Source: a virus
Direction: 5' to 3' (one strand)
IMG/VR virus record: IMGVR_UViG_3300009545_000038
Location: 1 to 41,421 of that record
Length of the DNA: 41,421 nt
Made by a program: the position numbers and the translations under genes. Below are positions 12,523 to 27,082 of this stretch, in pieces. Within the stretch, counting starts at the first letter, position 1. Each line of letters opens with the position of its first letter. The notes under the pieces were generated by a model that was not told where the DNA came from, did no database searches, and was given only the letters and a program-made list of their open reading frames with translations.

Positions 12523-12659
12523 TTGCAGCGCTCCCAGGCCCAAACGGGCGCGTGTCCGCGAGCGATGAAAATGAACGTCTCCACCCAGACCGCTTGCCAC
12601 TGCCAACTACCAAAAATTTCATACGGCTTCGTCATCGTCGTGCCCTCCGTCGTGCTCAT
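12519..12659 (-). CDS. Micro-protein, 46 aa (or 38 aa)
   Basis: ATG 12659 lies 6 nt after a strong -10 (leaderless if used). Alternatively the real start is ATG 12635 (MTKPYEIFGSWQWQ) with GGAGG 8 nt upstream, in which case ATGAGCACG is 5' leader. The product is aromatic- and Trp-rich (GSWQWQAVWVETFIFIARGH). It overlaps the next gene by GTGA. Function unknown. Confidence 0.45.
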   Translation of the reverse strand: MSTTEGTTMTKPYEIFGSWQWQAVWVETFIFIARGHAPVWAWERCK

Positions 12660-12665
12660 GAAACT

Positions 12666-12716
12666 AATCTAACGCCACCGATCATTTTCGTCAACAAGAA
12701 AACGATCGGTACCGAT
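12666..12716 (-). promoter_or_regulatory. Strong promoter with two operator elements
   Basis: Minus strand: -35 TTGACG (12689-12694), 17-nt spacer with ATGATCGGT, -10 TAGATT (12666-12671). Upstream lies the perfect 12-bp palindrome ATCGGTACCGAT (12705-12716), touching the stop of the preceding gene. The palindrome plus a spacer half-site suggests cooperative binding of a dimeric regulator. Confidence 0.7.
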
Positions 12717-12925
12717 TATTTTTTCTTCGCCCCCTCGCCTGGGCTGTCGCTGTCGTTCTGCTCTGCGTCGAAGACGCCCAGCCCCCTGCATCGCGGCGCT
12801 AGCAGGTCCCACGTGCGGCGACTCGCTGCGGGTATCACCACACCGCAGTGGCCACAACGCAGCCAACGCGAGAGTGTTGCGGTTCCGCGGCCAACATACG
12901 GAAACCATTCATGTTCGGACTCCAT
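12716..12925 (-). CDS. Small zinc-ribbon-like protein
   Basis: 69 aa from ATG 12925 (MESEHEWFPYVGRGTATLSR). AAGGAAGG 4 nt upstream fixes this start over the longer one at 12964. CGHCG (37-41) and Cys59 suggest a single metal site; the C-terminus is KKK. It sits between the inverted-repeat region and the operator palindrome, so it could act on either. Function unknown. Confidence 0.5.
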   Translation of the reverse strand: MESEHEWFPYVGRGTATLSRWLRCGHCGVVIPAASRRTWDLLAPRCRGLGVFDAEQNDSDSPGEGAKKK

Positions 12926-12986
12926 CAGCCTTCCTTGCCTGTGGGTTGCCTGTGGGTGGCACATGTCCTACACCCAGGTGTGATTA

Positions 12987-13283
12987 CAGGTACTTAGCTA
13001 ATTTGATATTATCTAACCTATTGATCCACCTGTGGGACCTGGGGGATCTGGGGGTATTTTCTCAAGTTATAGCCACCTGAGCATGTTACTCCTACATGTA
13101 GTTATTGAATAATATCAAGTACTTAACCTCTACTTTATATCCTAACTATTTGATATTATTCAAGACACACATGTAGGAGTAACATCATATATACAACCCT
13201 GACCCCCGTTTTTGCCCCCAGTACCCCCAGGTATTTTCAATTTTTGAATTTAAAAATCGGGAATCATTGAGGAAAAGTACCTG
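12987..13283. repeat. Nested concentric inverted repeats, candidate replication origin
   Basis: AT-rich, no supportable gene. Four pairs of inverted repeats share one centre near 13134-13135: CAGGTACTT 12987-12995 / AAGTACCTG 13275-13283; CTGGGGGATCTGGGGG 13039-13054 / CCCCCAGTACCCCCAG 13215-13230 (one to two mismatches); ATGTTACTCCTACATGT 13083-13099 / its exact complement 13169-13185; TTGAATAATATCAA 13105-13118 / its exact complement 13150-13163. The innermost loop is 31 nt. A fifth TTGATATTAT copy lies at 13003. CCTGTGGG repeats flank it (12938, 12949, 13029). Its location beside the primase-helicase gene and its AT content suggest a replication origin. A recombination or telomere-type site is a weaker option. 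Confidence 0.65.
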
Positions 13284-13330
13284 CGTGCAAAAAGCGCTTG
13301 CCCCCCGGCGACTCGAGTAGCCACCTAATT

Positions 13331-15619
13331 TCAAAATACGTCGTACTGCCACTGCTTTTTGACACTTTGTCTAACGATTAGGCCATAGTAGGGGAAGTGA
13401 TCGCCCTCCACCGTGTACACCTTGTTTTCCCGCAGGCGACGGCCGAAGGTAGAATTTGCAATTGGGCGCCTGCCCGCCTCCTCGCACCAACGCTTGAAGT
13501 AGGGGTAGATTTCTCGCATCGGCGTGCGCTCGCAATCGTCAATCTCGCAGCACTCCGCAAGAAAGCTTGCCACGCTATCCACTTCGACGCGCCACCCGCG
13601 CAACAGCTTGTGATGCGACGCAGGTAGGGTGAAGGCCCCGCGGGCTAGCAGACGGGACGCGCCAGCGACAGCCCAGGCGGCAATGCCAGCCATTTCGGAG
13701 GCCACCAACGACTCTTTGAGCGTGTCGTCACGCATCGGGTGCCCCATGGGGAACGTCCGATTCCACTCGACGATGAGGAATCGCCGCCAAAAGGCGTTGG
13801 TGTGGTCTGCGGTGCCCGGTAGGCGATTGCAAGCGAAGAGGTGCCCTGCGATGGGGGCGTGTTGGAACGGCCGCCCTGAGGGGTTGCGCGCATCCATTTC
13901 ATCGCCCGAGATCACCGCTTTGAAGCTGTCACCGCTCACAATCTCTGCTTCGGGCAGCTCAGACACCACGTTGAGGCGCACGCCAGCCAACGCGGCTTTA
14001 TAATATTCCTTGCCCCAGTCCTGGGGCTTGATGCTTTGCCGCTGTTCTTTTGGAAATAGCTCAGAGGCAACGTGCGTGAAGACGCTTTTTCCATTTTCGC
14101 CCATCTGTCCGTACAGCACGAGCGCTTTCTGATACCGGGGGGCAATGCCAATTAAGCAGGCGCCTAGAAACTCCTGCAACAGATCGATCTTCTCTGCCGC
14201 GTCTTCATCCCCCTCGAAGCAAGCGGCCAAATACGTTCGCCACCGATCGCACCGCGCATCCGCGGCGTACGCGTGCGGTAGCCCCAGGTTCAAGCGATTC
14301 TCCGCATCGTGGGGAACGAACGCGGCGCCGTTGGGTGTAGCCATCAAGACGCCATTGGTGAACGCTACGCCTGGGGGCGCCTCGCCGAAGAACCGTGCAT
14401 CACCGCTCAGCGTCTTGGCCGCGGAAATGACGTTGTGGATATTTTTATGGTTGAGCCGCAACAATTTCTTGCCCACGCGCTTGCCAGCGTAGCGCGACAC
14501 GATTTGGTACAGCTCATTGTCATCATAGCTCACCCACAAGCCCGACGCAGAATCGTAGCGCCATAGCTCATCTTGCGTACCCACGAGCGCCTCCTCATGG
14601 GTGCCAGCCAAATCCGTCAAAAGCCGCTGTGCTAACTCGATATCGTCGCCGCGAGTGAATGGCGCTGCATCCGACGCCCACCCACCGACTTTGTCTTTTA
14701 GTTCGGCCCAGCGGTTTACGTTGCCCCCACAGGAGTCATGCCAGCAACCCGCCCATATGCCTCCGCGCGACTGCACACGGATCATCAGTTTCTCGACGTG
14801 AGCAGGATTGAACGCGCAACGGCGCAATCGAAAGGTCACGTCGTTGATTTGGGTGTGGGGGACGGCCATCGCTGTAAGCCAGTAGCCAATTCGTTTGGCC
14901 GTCGCAATGGCCGAATCTGTAGCAGCTTCGCGGGGGGCAGACGACGACAGCGCAGGCTGTTGGATGAGCGCTGCGGGAAGCGGATGCGCCGCTAAAATCT
15001 CTTCGTACGTGTATTTTCGTTCGGGGTAGGCTTCAAGCAGCGTGACGCGCTCGGGGGCCACTCGCCGCCGTTTGCTGCACTTCGCGCACGTCTCATCAGG
15101 GCAGGGGCCATGCATGTTCCACGTGCCCGGCAAGCGCATTACACGATCGAGATTCACCATACTCTTGTCGGTGCCATAGAAGAGCGCGAGGTGGCGCTGT
15201 ACGTCGCTCCATTTGTCAATCGATTGCCCGTCGGCAAGCAGCCAGTAATAATGCCGGTTGCGGTTGCTTTCGGATGACGCGACGACGATCGACGGTGGTA
15301 GCCGCGGGATGGGCGGCAACAAGCTGGTGCCGTCGTCGTCCACAAAGCAAGCGCGCACGCCGGTGATCGCATGCTTGCCGCGCCTGCCTGCGTTGATCTG
15401 CACGTAGGCGGCGCGTTGTGCGGCGTTCAACTTGCCGATGATATCGGTGAGCTGCGGCAAGCTGCCGATATGCACACGGTTGTATTCTTTTCGTTTCTTG
15501 GCTGTGTCGTCGACAAACTGCAATACGAGGGCTGTGGCTTGCGATCCTGTAAGCGCGGTGATAAAGCGCTGCGCTTGCCGAAAGTCAAACGGATACTGCG
15601 GCAACATTGGCGCTAGCAT
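13331..15619 (-). CDS. Primase-helicase: RepB-type AEP primase fused to D5-like SF3 helicase
   Basis: 762 aa from ATG 15619 (MLAPMLPQYPF). An opening 20 codons longer has no ribosome site. Residues 20-200: archaeo-eukaryotic primase fold with DDDGT (94-98), HYYW (123-126) and NLDRVMRLPGTWN (156-168), as in RepB-like primases. A zinc site follows (Cys268, His274, Cys292, Cys297). Residues 330-620: D5/P4-type helicase with Walker A GQMGENGKS (504-512), Walker B LNVVSELPE (549-557) and sensor Asn598. A C-terminal helical/winged domain ends the protein. It should unwind the origin and prime synthesis. It is transcribed away from the plus-strand replication genes and ends 48 nt from the inverted-repeat region. 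Confidence 0.9.
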   Translation of the reverse strand: MLAPMLPQYPFDFRQAQRFITALTGSQATALVLQFVDDTAKKRKEYNRVHIGSLPQLTDIIGKLNAAQRAAYVQINAGRRGKHAITGVRACFVDDDGTSLLPPIPRLPPSIVVASSESNRNRHYYWLLADGQSIDKWSDVQRHLALFYGTDKSMVNLDRVMRLPGTWNMHGPCPDETCAKCSKRRRVAPERVTLLEAYPERKYTYEEILAAHPLPAALIQQPALSSSAPREAATDSAIATAKRIGYWLTAMAVPHTQINDVTFRLRRCAFNPAHVEKLMIRVQSRGGIWAGCWHDSCGGNVNRWAELKDKVGGWASDAAPFTRGDDIELAQRLLTDLAGTHEEALVGTQDELWRYDSASGLWVSYDDNELYQIVSRYAGKRVGKKLLRLNHKNIHNVISAAKTLSGDARFFGEAPPGVAFTNGVLMATPNGAAFVPHDAENRLNLGLPHAYAADARCDRWRTYLAACFEGDEDAAEKIDLLQEFLGACLIGIAPRYQKALVLYGQMGENGKSVFTHVASELFPKEQRQSIKPQDWGKEYYKAALAGVRLNVVSELPEAEIVSGDSFKAVISGDEMDARNPSGRPFQHAPIAGHLFACNRLPGTADHTNAFWRRFLIVEWNRTFPMGHPMRDDTLKESLVASEMAGIAAWAVAGASRLLARGAFTLPASHHKLLRGWRVEVDSVASFLAECCEIDDCERTPMREIYPYFKRWCEEAGRRPIANSTFGRRLRENKVYTVEGDHFPYYGLIVRQSVKKQWQYDVF

Positions 15620-15799
15620 TGATTCCCCATGGTATCCTCTTCTACTGCCACAGCTTGAGGGTGTGCAATAACAAAACACACCGATCGATTTTTTACACGT
15701 GCGGTCGCGGGCTTAGCGTGTTTGCAAGCGATCGATACTTAAAAGAATTTGACACATGCAGCGACTGGGGAGCATAACACTGCGAGGGGAGACACGCCA
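15620..15799. promoter_or_regulatory. Divergent control region between primase and early operon
   Basis: Plus side: TTGACA (15749-15754), 18-nt spacer, CATAAC (15773-15778), then GAGGGGAG before ATG 15800. This is the likely early promoter. Minus side: ACCGATCGAT (15680-15689) in the orientation seen in the left-arm promoters, with only a weak core promoter for the primase (TGTTAT as possible -10). A second ATCGAT (15731-15736) lies 45 nt away, so one regulator could control both directions. Confidence 0.55.
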
Positions 15800-16009
15800 A
15801 TGCCGAAAGATTCAGGGGATGGTAAGGCGCCGCACTGCAAATGGTGCAGTGCGCTAATTCGGACGGAGAATTTTCACCGCTTCCCGCCCACTGTGTGAGC
15901 CGCATGGATCGCGGGCTACTGCTCACCGTACCATCAGGCGATGGGCGCCAAAGACACTGTGGAGCGCTCAGAGGCGTGGTGGCAGGATAACAACGCGAGC
16001 CGGCGTTAA
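15800..16009 (+). pseudogene. Small zinc-finger gene with in-frame UGA at codon 33
   Basis: ATG 15800 has a good GAGGGGAG site. The frame gives 32 codons (MPKDSGDGKAPHCKWCSALI and on to FPPTV), a TGA at 15896-15898, then 36 more coherent codons (AAWIAGYCSPYHQAM and on to NNASRR) to TAA 16007-16009. The TAA forms a TAATG overlap with the next gene, just like other junctions of this operon, which argues that the 69-aa frame is the original gene. Cys13, Cys16, Cys40 and His44 would form one zinc site only if the UGA is read through. Options: recent nonsense mutation (TGG or TGC to TGA), sequencing error, or recoding. UGA is a normal stop elsewhere in the window. Confidence 0.6.
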
Positions 16010-23691: not shown

Positions 23692-23988
23692 TTGGCGTGG
23701 CACGATGCACTTTTGCGCGCTGAGATAGCGCGCGAATTTGAGGATCGCACCCACGTTTCACACGTTCGCCACGAGCATTTGATCGGGTGGGATCAGGGCA
23801 TAGCTCACCGGGGAGATCCGACGCATCGCGTGCGGGACAATTACGTTCGGCGGCCCCGCCGGGCGCGAAAGCAGCGTCGTCGCCGCACTCGGGGGCCGTG
23901 GCGTTGCTTGTGCCGTCGGTCTGTGCAGCTCCACTTCCCTTTCTATCACGTGAGGAAAAAGCGGAGCTATGTTCGCCGATCAACGTGA
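23692..23988 (+). CDS. 98-aa basic protein
   Basis: Opens at TTG 23692, directly after the previous TGA, and ends 20 nt inside the polymerase. N-terminus MAWHDALLRAEIAREFEDRT is helical; then GDPTHRVRDNYVRR and a strongly Arg-rich stretch. Arg-rich composition can also come from a GC-rich non-coding frame, so this call is tentative. No other frame on the plus strand fills the 277-nt gap. Confidence 0.4.
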   Translation: MAWHDALLRAEIAREFEDRTHVSHVRHEHLIGWDQGIAHRGDPTHRVRDNYVRRPRRARKQRRRRTRGPWRCLCRRSVQLHFPFYHVRKKRSYVRRST

Positions 23989-26900
23989 CAGTACGCGGCT
24001 CAAGTTGCAGCTCATCGCTGATGGTGCGGACTGCAAGCGTTGCCCGCTGAGCCGTCACGGGCAGCCGCACCGCCCCGTGCCCACGGAGCTGTTGAGTAAA
24101 CGGCCGCTCGTGGCGCTCGTGGGTGAAGCGCCTGGCAAACGTGAAACGCAGGTCGGGCGCCCCTTCATCGGCATCAGCGGCAAGATTCTTGACCAGGCGA
24201 TGCAGCGCGGTGGCGTGCAGCGCACCGACTTCGCCATTTTGAACGCCATCGCTTGCGGGCCCATCCCGTCGCAGGCGGACGGGATGAAGCAAGAGGCCAT
24301 GCTGGCGTGCCGCCCGCGCTTGTTGCGCGAGCTGGCGCGGCTACAGCCGAAGGTGATCCTAGCCGTCGGCGGGTACGCTCTCAAATCGTTGGGGGCTACG
24401 GCTGCGGGCGTCACGGCCGTGCGCGGCGCAACGCTCAAACTGAAGCCCGATGTGATAGCTTGTCTTGGGGTTGAAAGTGATCCTGTTACCTTCGCGCGTA
24501 GTACCGAAGATGAATGGCGGCAGGGCGCGAATGGAGGCAGTAAAGCGACGAAACCGACCTTTTCGCCTTTTCGGTCGGGGGAGCCCACGATCACGCCCCA
24601 TTTTCTGGCAACGCTGCATCCGGCGCACATCGCGCGCGGAGGCGATGGAGACGCCCCGGATGCGCCTGGGGGCGACTCGGGCCCCGCTGTAGATCTTCTG
24701 TTCTACTTTTTCATGTATGACGTGGTGAAATCCGTACGCCTCGCACGCGGCGAGATTCAGCCGTGGACGGACAGCCTTGATCTGTTCGCGTGGCGCGGGG
24801 GCCTCGTCAATCCAGTCTTTGACGACGATGACAACGTGGTGGGTTGGGAAGACGCGCCGCCCAACGCGATGGATGTGGCGATCGATCAGGTATACAGCGA
24901 GGCGAGCGAAGCCGGGGAGTTTGCCGTCGACGTCGAGACGGACAGCAAAGACGCTATGACTGCGAGCCTCACGGCCATCGCCTTCGCCACTACCCTGGGC
25001 GGCATGTCTGCGACGTGGGAGGCATGGCAGAGCAAACCGACGGCGAAGGCGCGAGCTGCGCAGTTGCTGGCTGATCGCAAAATCGCCGTCATCATCCAAA
25101 ATCGGATCTACGATACGATCGTTCTCCCACGTCATGGGATGCCCATCGGCGGCATCGTCCACGATACGCTGTTGCAGCATCACGCGGCGTTCCCTGGGTT
25201 GCCTCACAAGCTGCAAGCCATCGCAACGCAGTTTTTCGTCACGCGCCCCTGGAAAGACGAATTCCGTCGGACGGAGAAGGATGAAGGAAGTCTGATCCTC
25301 TACAACGGACGCGACACCGTTGCCACGGCGCGGGCTAAGCCCGTATTGGAGAAGATGATCGATGCGCATCGCACAGGTAAAGTCTATGAAGCTGATCGGC
25401 AGCAATTTTCTGTGGCTACTCATATGCGCCGCGTTGGGTATTTTGTGGATCGTGTCGAGCAAAAACGGCAGTCCGAGATCCAACACGCGCGCCTTGCCTA
25501 CATGCGCGATTCACTCATTACCGATTTCAAATCCATTGAGGAGCCATGGCGCAAGGCGTTGGCCCGTATCCTCGCGTCGACGGCGCGCAAGAAGGATCCC
25601 GAGTCTTACTTGGAACGCGTGGATCTCCGCTACCGCGAGATAGCCGAACGTGACAAGAAAGAGACTGACATCGGGCTATTCAAGCCGAAGGCGCACAAGG
25701 ATGTGCTAGCGCTCTTTGAGATTCTCAAAGTGCCGATCCTCGACTACACCAAAAAAGGCGCGCCCAAGACGGATAAAAAAGCGATGGAGGCAGCTGCGGG
25801 CCGCCACCCGCTGTTGCGCAAGATCATCCACCTTCGCGAAGCAAAGCACTTGCTGGCGACGTACATCGACGGGTTGCCGATCCTCGCGGATGGCCGCGTG
25901 CATCCTGATTGGAGCCCCAAGATCACCGGCCGATGGGGCGCAGGCAAGGCGCAGAATTGGCCGAAATTCGTGCAGGGTTGGCCCCCTGAAAAGGATGCAA
26001 ATGGAAACTTCAAGCGACGTCCGTCCGGTGAGCTTGTCACGCCGAAGGAAAATCCACGCCGCATTGTTACGGCGCCAACTGCCGATGAGATCTGCGCGCT
26101 TGGCGTTGCTGGCGTCGCTCCGAATGTGTATTTGCGAGCATTGCAGGGGCGCGGCCGGATGCTTGTCGGAGCGGATTTTTCGCAGTTGGAATTGCGGATC
26201 GCCGCTTTCCTCGCGCGCGATCCGTTCCTGCTTGGCATCTTCCGACGTGGTGAGGATCCTCATGCGGCGTTCGCCCGACGGGCGTTTCCGGCGGATTTTC
26301 CCAAACTAGAGACGCAATTCAAAGACCGCTGCAAGGCGTTGGGCCTCGAGATCAAGATCAAGGCGAATCTGACAAACCCTCAGGGTGAGAAATATGTGAC
26401 GGGGCTTGACGATGCGGACCGCAAGCAACTGGCCTCGTGGGCCGCGCAGTGGTCTCGCTTGCGAGACCTGACGAAGCGCGCGGAGTACTGCGGCATCTAC
26501 GGCGGCGAAGCTAAGACGGTCTATGACTCGATCGTCAAAGACTTCCCCGAGGTGAAGTTAGCTGATCTTGAAAAGCTAGTCGCCTCCGTCAACCGCGAAA
26601 TGGCCGGCGTAGTCGCATGGCGTAACCGTCAGGAAGAGAGCGCACATGCGCATCGCGAGATCCGCGAAAAGATCCTCGGGCGTGTGCGACTGTTCCCGCT
26701 GGGCAATTTCAATCCCAACGTGGTGTATAACTTTCCGATTCAAGCGATGGCTGCGTCTCTCCTCGCGCTGTCAATCTTTCGCTTCACTGCGTTGACGCAG
26801 CCGCAGTTGCTGGAAATCGATCGGCTGTATAGGTTTTCCTTGCTTGACGCCTCGTGGATAGCTAGGATGCGATCGGAAGGCTTCGACAAATGGCAGGCGC

Positions 26901-27082
26901 CAGTTGATTTGATCCTCAACGGCCATGACTCGCTGTTGGCTGAAAGTGACGAAGAGGACGCAGAAAAATGCACGGTGTTCATGGAAAAGTGCATGCATCA
27001 GGAATTGCACATGCCTGAATTGAACGAAGCCGTTGTGTTCATTGGGGAAGCGGCCAAGGGCCGCAGATGGAGCGACACATGA
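23969..27082 (+). CDS. UDG - 3'-5' exonuclease - family A DNA polymerase fusion
   Basis: 1037 aa; GCGGAGCT precedes ATG 23969. Residues 10-222: family-4-like uracil-DNA glycosylase with CKRCPL (22-27), GEAPGKRE (52-59), GRPFIGISG (63-71), LNAIACGP and HPAH (217-220). Residues 315-460: DnaQ-like exonuclease with VDVETD (Asp321, Glu323), NRIYD and YNGRD. Residues 480-1000: PolA with motif A DFSQLEL (736-742), motif B RDLTKRAEYCGIYG (832-845; Tyr840 at the Phe762 position of E. coli Pol I) and motif C HDS (986-988), where Ser replaces the usual Glu. It is the replicative polymerase; the glycosylase may detect uracil in template or be a DNA-binding relic. The 375-aa minus-strand frame inside it is antisense. 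Confidence 0.9.
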   Translation: MFADQRDSTRLKLQLIADGADCKRCPLSRHGQPHRPVPTELLSKRPLVALVGEAPGKRETQVGRPFIGISGKILDQAMQRGGVQRTDFAILNAIACGPIPSQADGMKQEAMLACRPRLLRELARLQPKVILAVGGYALKSLGATAAGVTAVRGATLKLKPDVIACLGVESDPVTFARSTEDEWRQGANGGSKATKPTFSPFRSGEPTITPHFLATLHPAHIARGGDGDAPDAPGGDSGPAVDLLFYFFMYDVVKSVRLARGEIQPWTDSLDLFAWRGGLVNPVFDDDDNVVGWEDAPPNAMDVAIDQVYSEASEAGEFAVDVETDSKDAMTASLTAIAFATTLGGMSATWEAWQSKPTAKARAAQLLADRKIAVIIQNRIYDTIVLPRHGMPIGGIVHDTLLQHHAAFPGLPHKLQAIATQFFVTRPWKDEFRRTEKDEGSLILYNGRDTVATARAKPVLEKMIDAHRTGKVYEADRQQFSVATHMRRVGYFVDRVEQKRQSEIQHARLAYMRDSLITDFKSIEEPWRKALARILASTARKKDPESYLERVDLRYREIAERDKKETDIGLFKPKAHKDVLALFEILKVPILDYTKKGAPKTDKKAMEAAAGRHPLLRKIIHLREAKHLLATYIDGLPILADGRVHPDWSPKITGRWGAGKAQNWPKFVQGWPPEKDANGNFKRRPSGELVTPKENPRRIVTAPTADEICALGVAGVAPNVYLRALQGRGRMLVGADFSQLELRIAAFLARDPFLLGIFRRGEDPHAAFARRAFPADFPKLETQFKDRCKALGLEIKIKANLTNPQGEKYVTGLDDADRKQLASWAAQWSRLRDLTKRAEYCGIYGGEAKTVYDSIVKDFPEVKLADLEKLVASVNREMAGVVAWRNRQEESAHAHREIREKILGRVRLFPLGNFNPNVVYNFPIQAMAASLLALSIFRFTALTQPQLLEIDRLYRFSLLDASWIARMRSEGFDKWQAPVDLILNGHDSLLAESDEEDAEKCTVFMEKCMHQELHMPELNEAVVFIGEAAKGRRWSDT

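Follow-up and report, generated by a model that had tools for sequence, protein, structure and literature searches.

We found that a 366-bp non-coding gap at positions 12965-13330 of a 41,421-bp phage contig from IMG/VR (the whole of which is called the window here) is very probably the replication origin of the phage, recognized by the primase-helicase that is encoded next to it. The gap begins immediately at the stop of the primase-helicase gene (minus strand, gene end at 13331), contains no gene, and has a GC content of 41% against 59% in its surroundings; the 300-bp stretch with the lowest GC content in the entire contig starts at 13001, inside the gap. A preliminary description of this DNA had already called the region a probable replication origin and characterized it as AT-rich, gene-free, and directly 3' of a primase-helicase. 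Our analysis agrees on these points, with support for the origin reading coming from the placement 3' of a D5-type primase-helicase, the AT-richness, a group of short iterons, a covarying stem, and the recurrence of the arrangement, both in relatives and in replicons that have been defined by experiment.

The probable initiator is an AEP/SF3 (D5-type) primase-helicase of 782 aa (13331-15679, minus strand), which matches the Pfam models DUF5906, D5_N, and Pox_D5 above the cut-off, the last of these as a winged-helix-like domain at the C-terminus (aa 701-752). AEP primase, SF3 helicase, and C-terminal winged helix are found in one protein, with the AEP part matched by RepB_primase below the cut-off in the window protein and above it in a more distant homolog, L005. 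The window protein also displays the sequences FVDDDGT, RNRHYYW, and LDRVMRLPGT, which we take to be AEP-like motifs. Its sole match among solved structures is the DNA primase 7ola/7om0, across the helicase part, and its best matches in a collection of named phages are D5 primases with 22-30% identity. An AlphaFold prediction of the primase-helicase made with three sequences had a pLDDT of just 33 and was set aside. Elsewhere in the window, the DNA polymerase I gene (23969-27082) codes for an N-terminal domain of the uracil-DNA-glycosylase superfamily (PF03167, aa 46-222) fused to the 3'-5' exonuclease and polymerase domains.

The center of the gap is occupied by a 103-bp hairpin (13083-13185, axis at 13134). 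Its two 43-nt arms (13083-13125 and 13143-13185, both given on the plus strand) are 86% complementary to each other and include two perfectly paired stems, an outer one of 17 nt and an inner one of 14 nt; the 17-nt loop between them (13126-13142) is AT-rich, non-palindromic, and not conserved in the close relative L004. The ungapped inverted-repeat score of the hairpin is 28. When the region was dinucleotide-shuffled 100 times, the score averaged 8.2 (sd 1.0) and never exceeded 12, and the second-best inverted repeat anywhere in the 41 kb scores 12.5. Folding as single-stranded DNA gives z-scores of -8.4 and -9.3. Two further inverted pairs share the axis, such that the four concentric pairs of the preliminary description, including the perfect 17- and 14-nt inner ones, are indeed present. 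The third pair (13037-13054 and 13215-13232) is 18 nt long and 89% complementary, with its clusters centered at -93 and +89.5 bp from the axis. The fourth and outermost is a perfect 9-nt pair, weak by itself, between CAGGTACTT (12987-12995, plus strand) and AAGTACCTG (13275-13283, plus strand), offset by -143 and +145 bp.

Inspection of the third pair, with its CTGGGGG arms, showed that these arms are tandem 9-bp iterons of the form AYCTGNGNG. The plus strand carries ACCTGTGGG-ACCTGGGGG-ATCTGGGGG at 13028-13054 (13028-13036, 13037-13045, and 13046-13054, respectively), and the minus strand carries ACCTGGGGG-TACTGGGGG at 13215-13232 (13224-13232, followed by a degenerate copy at 13215-13223). 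Read as a plus-strand triplet and a minus-strand doublet, both sets point towards the hairpin, converging on it from about 30 bp outside the stem and enclosing a core with just 28% GC. The earlier view that the symmetry is more elaborate than simple iterons is thus only partly upheld: the symmetry is real, but part of it consists of iterons in inverted sets. An additional single iteron, ACCTGGGTG (12971-12979, minus strand), has a counterpart at the same spacing in L004, namely ACCTGCGTG, and two copies of GCCTGTGGG with an 11-bp pitch (12937-12956, plus strand), which are not kept in L004, are possible auxiliary iterons. Five of the 15 occurrences of AYCTGNGNG in the 41-kb contig fall inside 320 bp at the gap, with no other 320-bp bin holding more than two, a count that is descriptive as the motif was derived from the gap region itself. 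The tandem 9-bp pitch is significant in the window (p <= 0.005); counting of exact 6-mers did not single out the window iterons (top count 4, shuffle maximum 5). The DnaA box TTATNCACA, expected in a DnaA-dependent origin, had no match in the gap with up to one mismatch allowed.

Two contigs code for primases close to that of the window, L003 being 100% and L004 89% identical, and more scans of viral contigs for primases of this type returned the same three contigs only; five genome contigs that match at no more than 31-34%, over the N-terminal part, were left out. The L004 locus sits in contig G001, relative to which the window, with no terminal repeat found, lacks about 8.4 kb of the genome. 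G001 and a second relative, G002, can be closed to circles via near-identical terminal overlaps. These overlaps measure 94 bp at 98.9% identity in G001 (L032-L034) and 200 bp at 99.5% identity in G002 (L035-L037); both contigs are classed as linear, and exact-repeat tests overlook the overlaps because of one mismatch. We also observed that the L003 contig and the L004 contig run out within about 50 bp of a common point on the map, immediately upstream of the primase, across which the window continues (15775-15829); either the assemblies broke at the same place or the DNA has a physical end there.

The comparison of the window with L004 bears directly on the hairpin and the iterons. The L004 hairpin is the strongest inverted repeat of its contig (score 18, the next being 13). 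When the inner stems are compared in a fixed register, three double changes preserve the pairing, and three stem positions that are unpaired in the window form Watson-Crick pairs in L004; as judged from these two sequences, the hairpin stem covaries. In G001, five of the 14 copies of AYCTGNGNG are clustered, their order, orientation, and spacing matching those in the window, and the tandem 9-bp pitch is again significant (p <= 0.010). The copies ACCTGCGCG-ATCTGCGCC lie at +87 bp in the expected orientation. A loss of the inverted orientation in the left iteron set of L004 was considered and is ruled out by ACCTGCGCG-ATCTGCGCC when read in the correct register. The preliminary description had named the loss of the symmetric arms in close relatives that keep the primase as the observation that should count against it: the hairpin and the iteron arms are kept, and only the outermost symmetry of CAGGTACTT and AAGTACCTG is not retained in L004 as a 9-nt pair. 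In L005, whose primase is 47% identical, the corresponding gap has a different 9-bp iteron. Nine of the 11 ACCCTCC copies of that genome lie in this gap, some facing one way and some the other, and 9-bp tandem pairs flank a central 108-bp stretch on both sides; here, the inverted iterons occur without a separate long central hairpin.

The same layout of inverted tandem 9-bp repeats was found in other phages and plasmids. It is seen in BMP-1 (arms with two copies of GTTTGCCTC), BcepC6B (two copies of GGGACGATA), Acinetobacter 4316 (two copies of AGTGACGTT), pRN1 (TGTCCATAG-TGTCCAACT), and pHEN7 (TGTCACCAC-TGTCACAAC); it is weaker in pRN2, and across pRN2 and pDL10 the 9-bp pitch is weak or absent. 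Between the stem arms of pRN1 and pHEN7 (L038-L040 being pRN1, pRN2, and pHEN7), we observed a change of TGTCCA to TGTCAC in both tandem copies. In the pooled arms of nine replicons, which were trimmed by hand, self-identity was 72% at lag 9 and 19-32% at the other lags from 5 to 14, a value reached in none of 20,000 permutations; among six held-out replicons, likewise, no permutation reached the self-identity at lag 9. As the arms had been trimmed by hand, the test was repeated in automated form on 80 IMG/VR loci of BPP-1-type primases, reduced to 50 non-redundant ones, with an inverted-repeat threshold score of at least 14. An inverted repeat at or above this threshold was present downstream in 49 of the 50 loci, compared to three of 111 control stretches from the same loci. 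The best pitch was 9 bp in 41 of those 49, although the surveyed loci are homologous and the 41 are thus not independent events.

The letters of the iterons vary widely among these loci (GCGACGTTT, TTGGAACGT, AGTGACTTA, TACGGCAGG, and others) while the layout stays constant, which indicates that the copies changed in concert. Iteron distance correlates with the divergence of the helicase (rho 0.50) and of the C-terminal part (rho 0.46), and less so with that of the primase domain (rho 0.22); these domain-wise correlations do not tell which of the two, helicase or winged helix, reads the iterons. The 9-bp rule is not universal for D5 primases, since a number of D5-primase phages, namely Vibrio 393E50-1, Flyfo, KLEA5, LMAVpVPP, SanaSana, and Proteus 2207-N35, showed no sizeable gap or clear signal after the primase.

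Among the known systems, the closest parallels to the window are the stem-loop origins. In the Sulfolobus plasmid pRN1, a stem-loop of about 100 nt located 3' of orf904 is required for replication (PMC4234260, PMC3869888), an element that PMC3869888 mapped, and a similar stem-loop has been seen in Bordetella BIP-1 (PMC4234260). In pRN1 and in the proposed stem-loop origin of BIP-1, BMP-1, and BPP-1, as in the window, a gene that codes for AEP primase and SF3 helicase is followed directly on its 3' side by a stem-loop of about 100 nt; the placement 3' of the gene is the same for the 103-bp hairpin of the window as for pRN1, pRN2, pHEN7, and BMP-1. As in pRN1 and BIP-1, the stem is kept while its sequence changes, and the central part is variable. 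pRN1 was described as being without iteron structure, and no origin iterons were reported for BIP-1 (PMC4234260); in the present analysis, pRN1 and BMP-1 have two tandem 9-bp repeats per arm, which form the base of the stem. The window departs from these in that its iterons, in 3 + 2 copies, lie outside a separate hairpin, and in the N-terminus of the primase, which is RepB_primase-like rather than of the Prim-Pol kind found in the pRN1/BIP-1 type.

The iteron-based origins offer a second set of parallels. PICI origins feature AT-rich DNA between two iteron sets 3' of rep (PMC6092414). In agreement with this PICI/SaPI type, the window has two opposed iteron sets flanking an AT-rich core directly 3' of an initiator helicase gene; unlike it, the core has a long covarying hairpin, and the setting is a free-standing phage genome and not an island. 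In the putative origin of SCCmec Cch2, too, the gene of a D5-type helicase is followed by a gap with short iterons, and the origin has inverted repeats as well. The C-terminal domain of Cch2 binds these iterons, and deletion of the inverted repeats was without effect on binding; the system differs in its three 5-bp AAGTG iterons and in having helicase and primase on separate proteins (PMC7581432). The alpha protein and ori of bacteriophage P4, as described in PMC4234260, resemble the window in being a primase-helicase whose C-terminal winged helix binds origin repeats, and differ in the TOPRIM primase and in that a long hairpin is not reported there.

An RNA role for the hairpin in a leftward transcript, where it would serve in processing, attenuation, or transcript stability between the primase and the downstream genes, appears quite improbable. 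The stem is strong and covarying, both flanking genes are leftward, and of the four non-Watson-Crick pairs that the L004 inner stem has in its outer part, three are G-T when read in the transcript sense, as such a role would have it. However, no Rfam family was matched at the gathering score, a T-run is absent after either arm, and the sole terminator-like site lies elsewhere at chance level. Further, a structured transcript accounts neither for the inverted 9-bp iterons, nor for the fact that these recur elsewhere, with unrelated sequences, in other replicons, nor for the lowest-GC composition.

The GC skew, proposed earlier as a check of the origin, bears on a second alternative, namely that the gap is a mere operator or regulatory region for the downstream genes and that the origin lies elsewhere, e.g., within the primase gene. 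In the two closable relatives, the circular skew has its minimum 1.7-1.8 kb from the axis and its maximum near the antipode, which is compatible with an origin at the gap; the minimum itself falls inside the primase gene, off the hairpin, in both relatives and likewise in the window, although GC skew is confounded here by the divergent gene order. Against this regulatory role, which we regard as highly unlikely, a scan found no promoter-like excess, the genome has no second iteron cluster of this kind, and the analogous 3' gap holds an origin element that pRN1 requires (PMC4234260, PMC3869888) and serves as the origin of PICIs (PMC6092414).

Recombination and partition systems typically have symmetric sites with flanking repeats. 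A site of this kind (attP, resolution site, or centromere) would account for the symmetry, which is itself real, but is just as unlikely: tyrosine recombinase (PF00589), protelomerase (PF16684), and serine resolvase (PF00239) were not found in G000, G001, and G002, of which the latter two are closable, while absence from the window by itself is not final given the roughly 8.4 kb that it lacks; a protelomerase target would not be centered, as this site is, on a non-palindromic loop of 17 nt, and the telomere- or resolution-type processing suggested in the preliminary description finds no family to carry it out in the three contigs.

For the gap as a replication origin, we propose the following mechanism. 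The C-terminal winged-helix domain would bind the AYCTGNGNG iterons, in two convergent sets about 90 bp to each side of the axis. One SF3 hexamer could then load per iteron set, giving two opposed rings with the AT-rich hairpin between them. The core would next be melted in an ATP-driven step, whereupon both strands may fold as hairpins. Priming by the primase domain and extension by the phage PolA would then send forks in both directions. The role of the hairpin itself is the least certain step of this scheme, because the inverted repeats of Cch2 are dispensable for binding (PMC7581432).

More broadly, we consider it reasonably likely that the stem-loop origins (pRN1, BIP-1) and the iteron origins (PICI/SaPI, Cch2) represent one design, common to archaeal plasmids, phages, and satellite islands, in which convergent tandem 9-bp iterons serve to place two SF3 primase-helicase rings, facing each other, at an AT-rich core. 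The window would then be a member that has diverged, its iteron sets now forming a module of their own apart from the core hairpin. Convergent tandem iteron sets will necessarily also read as a stem-loop. The flanking of AT-rich DNA by iteron sets (PICI/SaPI) and the stem-loop origin (pRN1, BIP-1) are already known; what appears to be new, relative to the open-licence PMC papers compared, is that the stem-loops of the pRN1/BIP-1 type also carry tandem 9-bp iterons in their arms. The origins of many phages and plasmids with AEP/SF3 primase-helicases are mostly unmapped. With a rule of inverted tandem 9-bp repeats in the gap that follows the gene on its 3' side, such origins could be placed from sequence alone and the binding sites of their initiators predicted, and the stem-loop proposal of 2014 could be tested together with the PICI origin model as a single mechanism.

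The far edge of the gap is formed by a downstream gene for a small protein (12716-12964, minus strand) with a CGHCG motif, which is conserved in L004 and had no PHROG or Pfam match. CGATCG-type palindromic repeats next to TTGAC-like hexamers occur both upstream of the primase (15683-15740) and downstream of this small gene (12690-12721), and are possible repressor operators. Finally, the leader ATGAGCACGACGGAGGGCACGACGATGACGAAG is identical at 12625-12660 of the window and 3151-3185 of L004, with different genes following it in the two.
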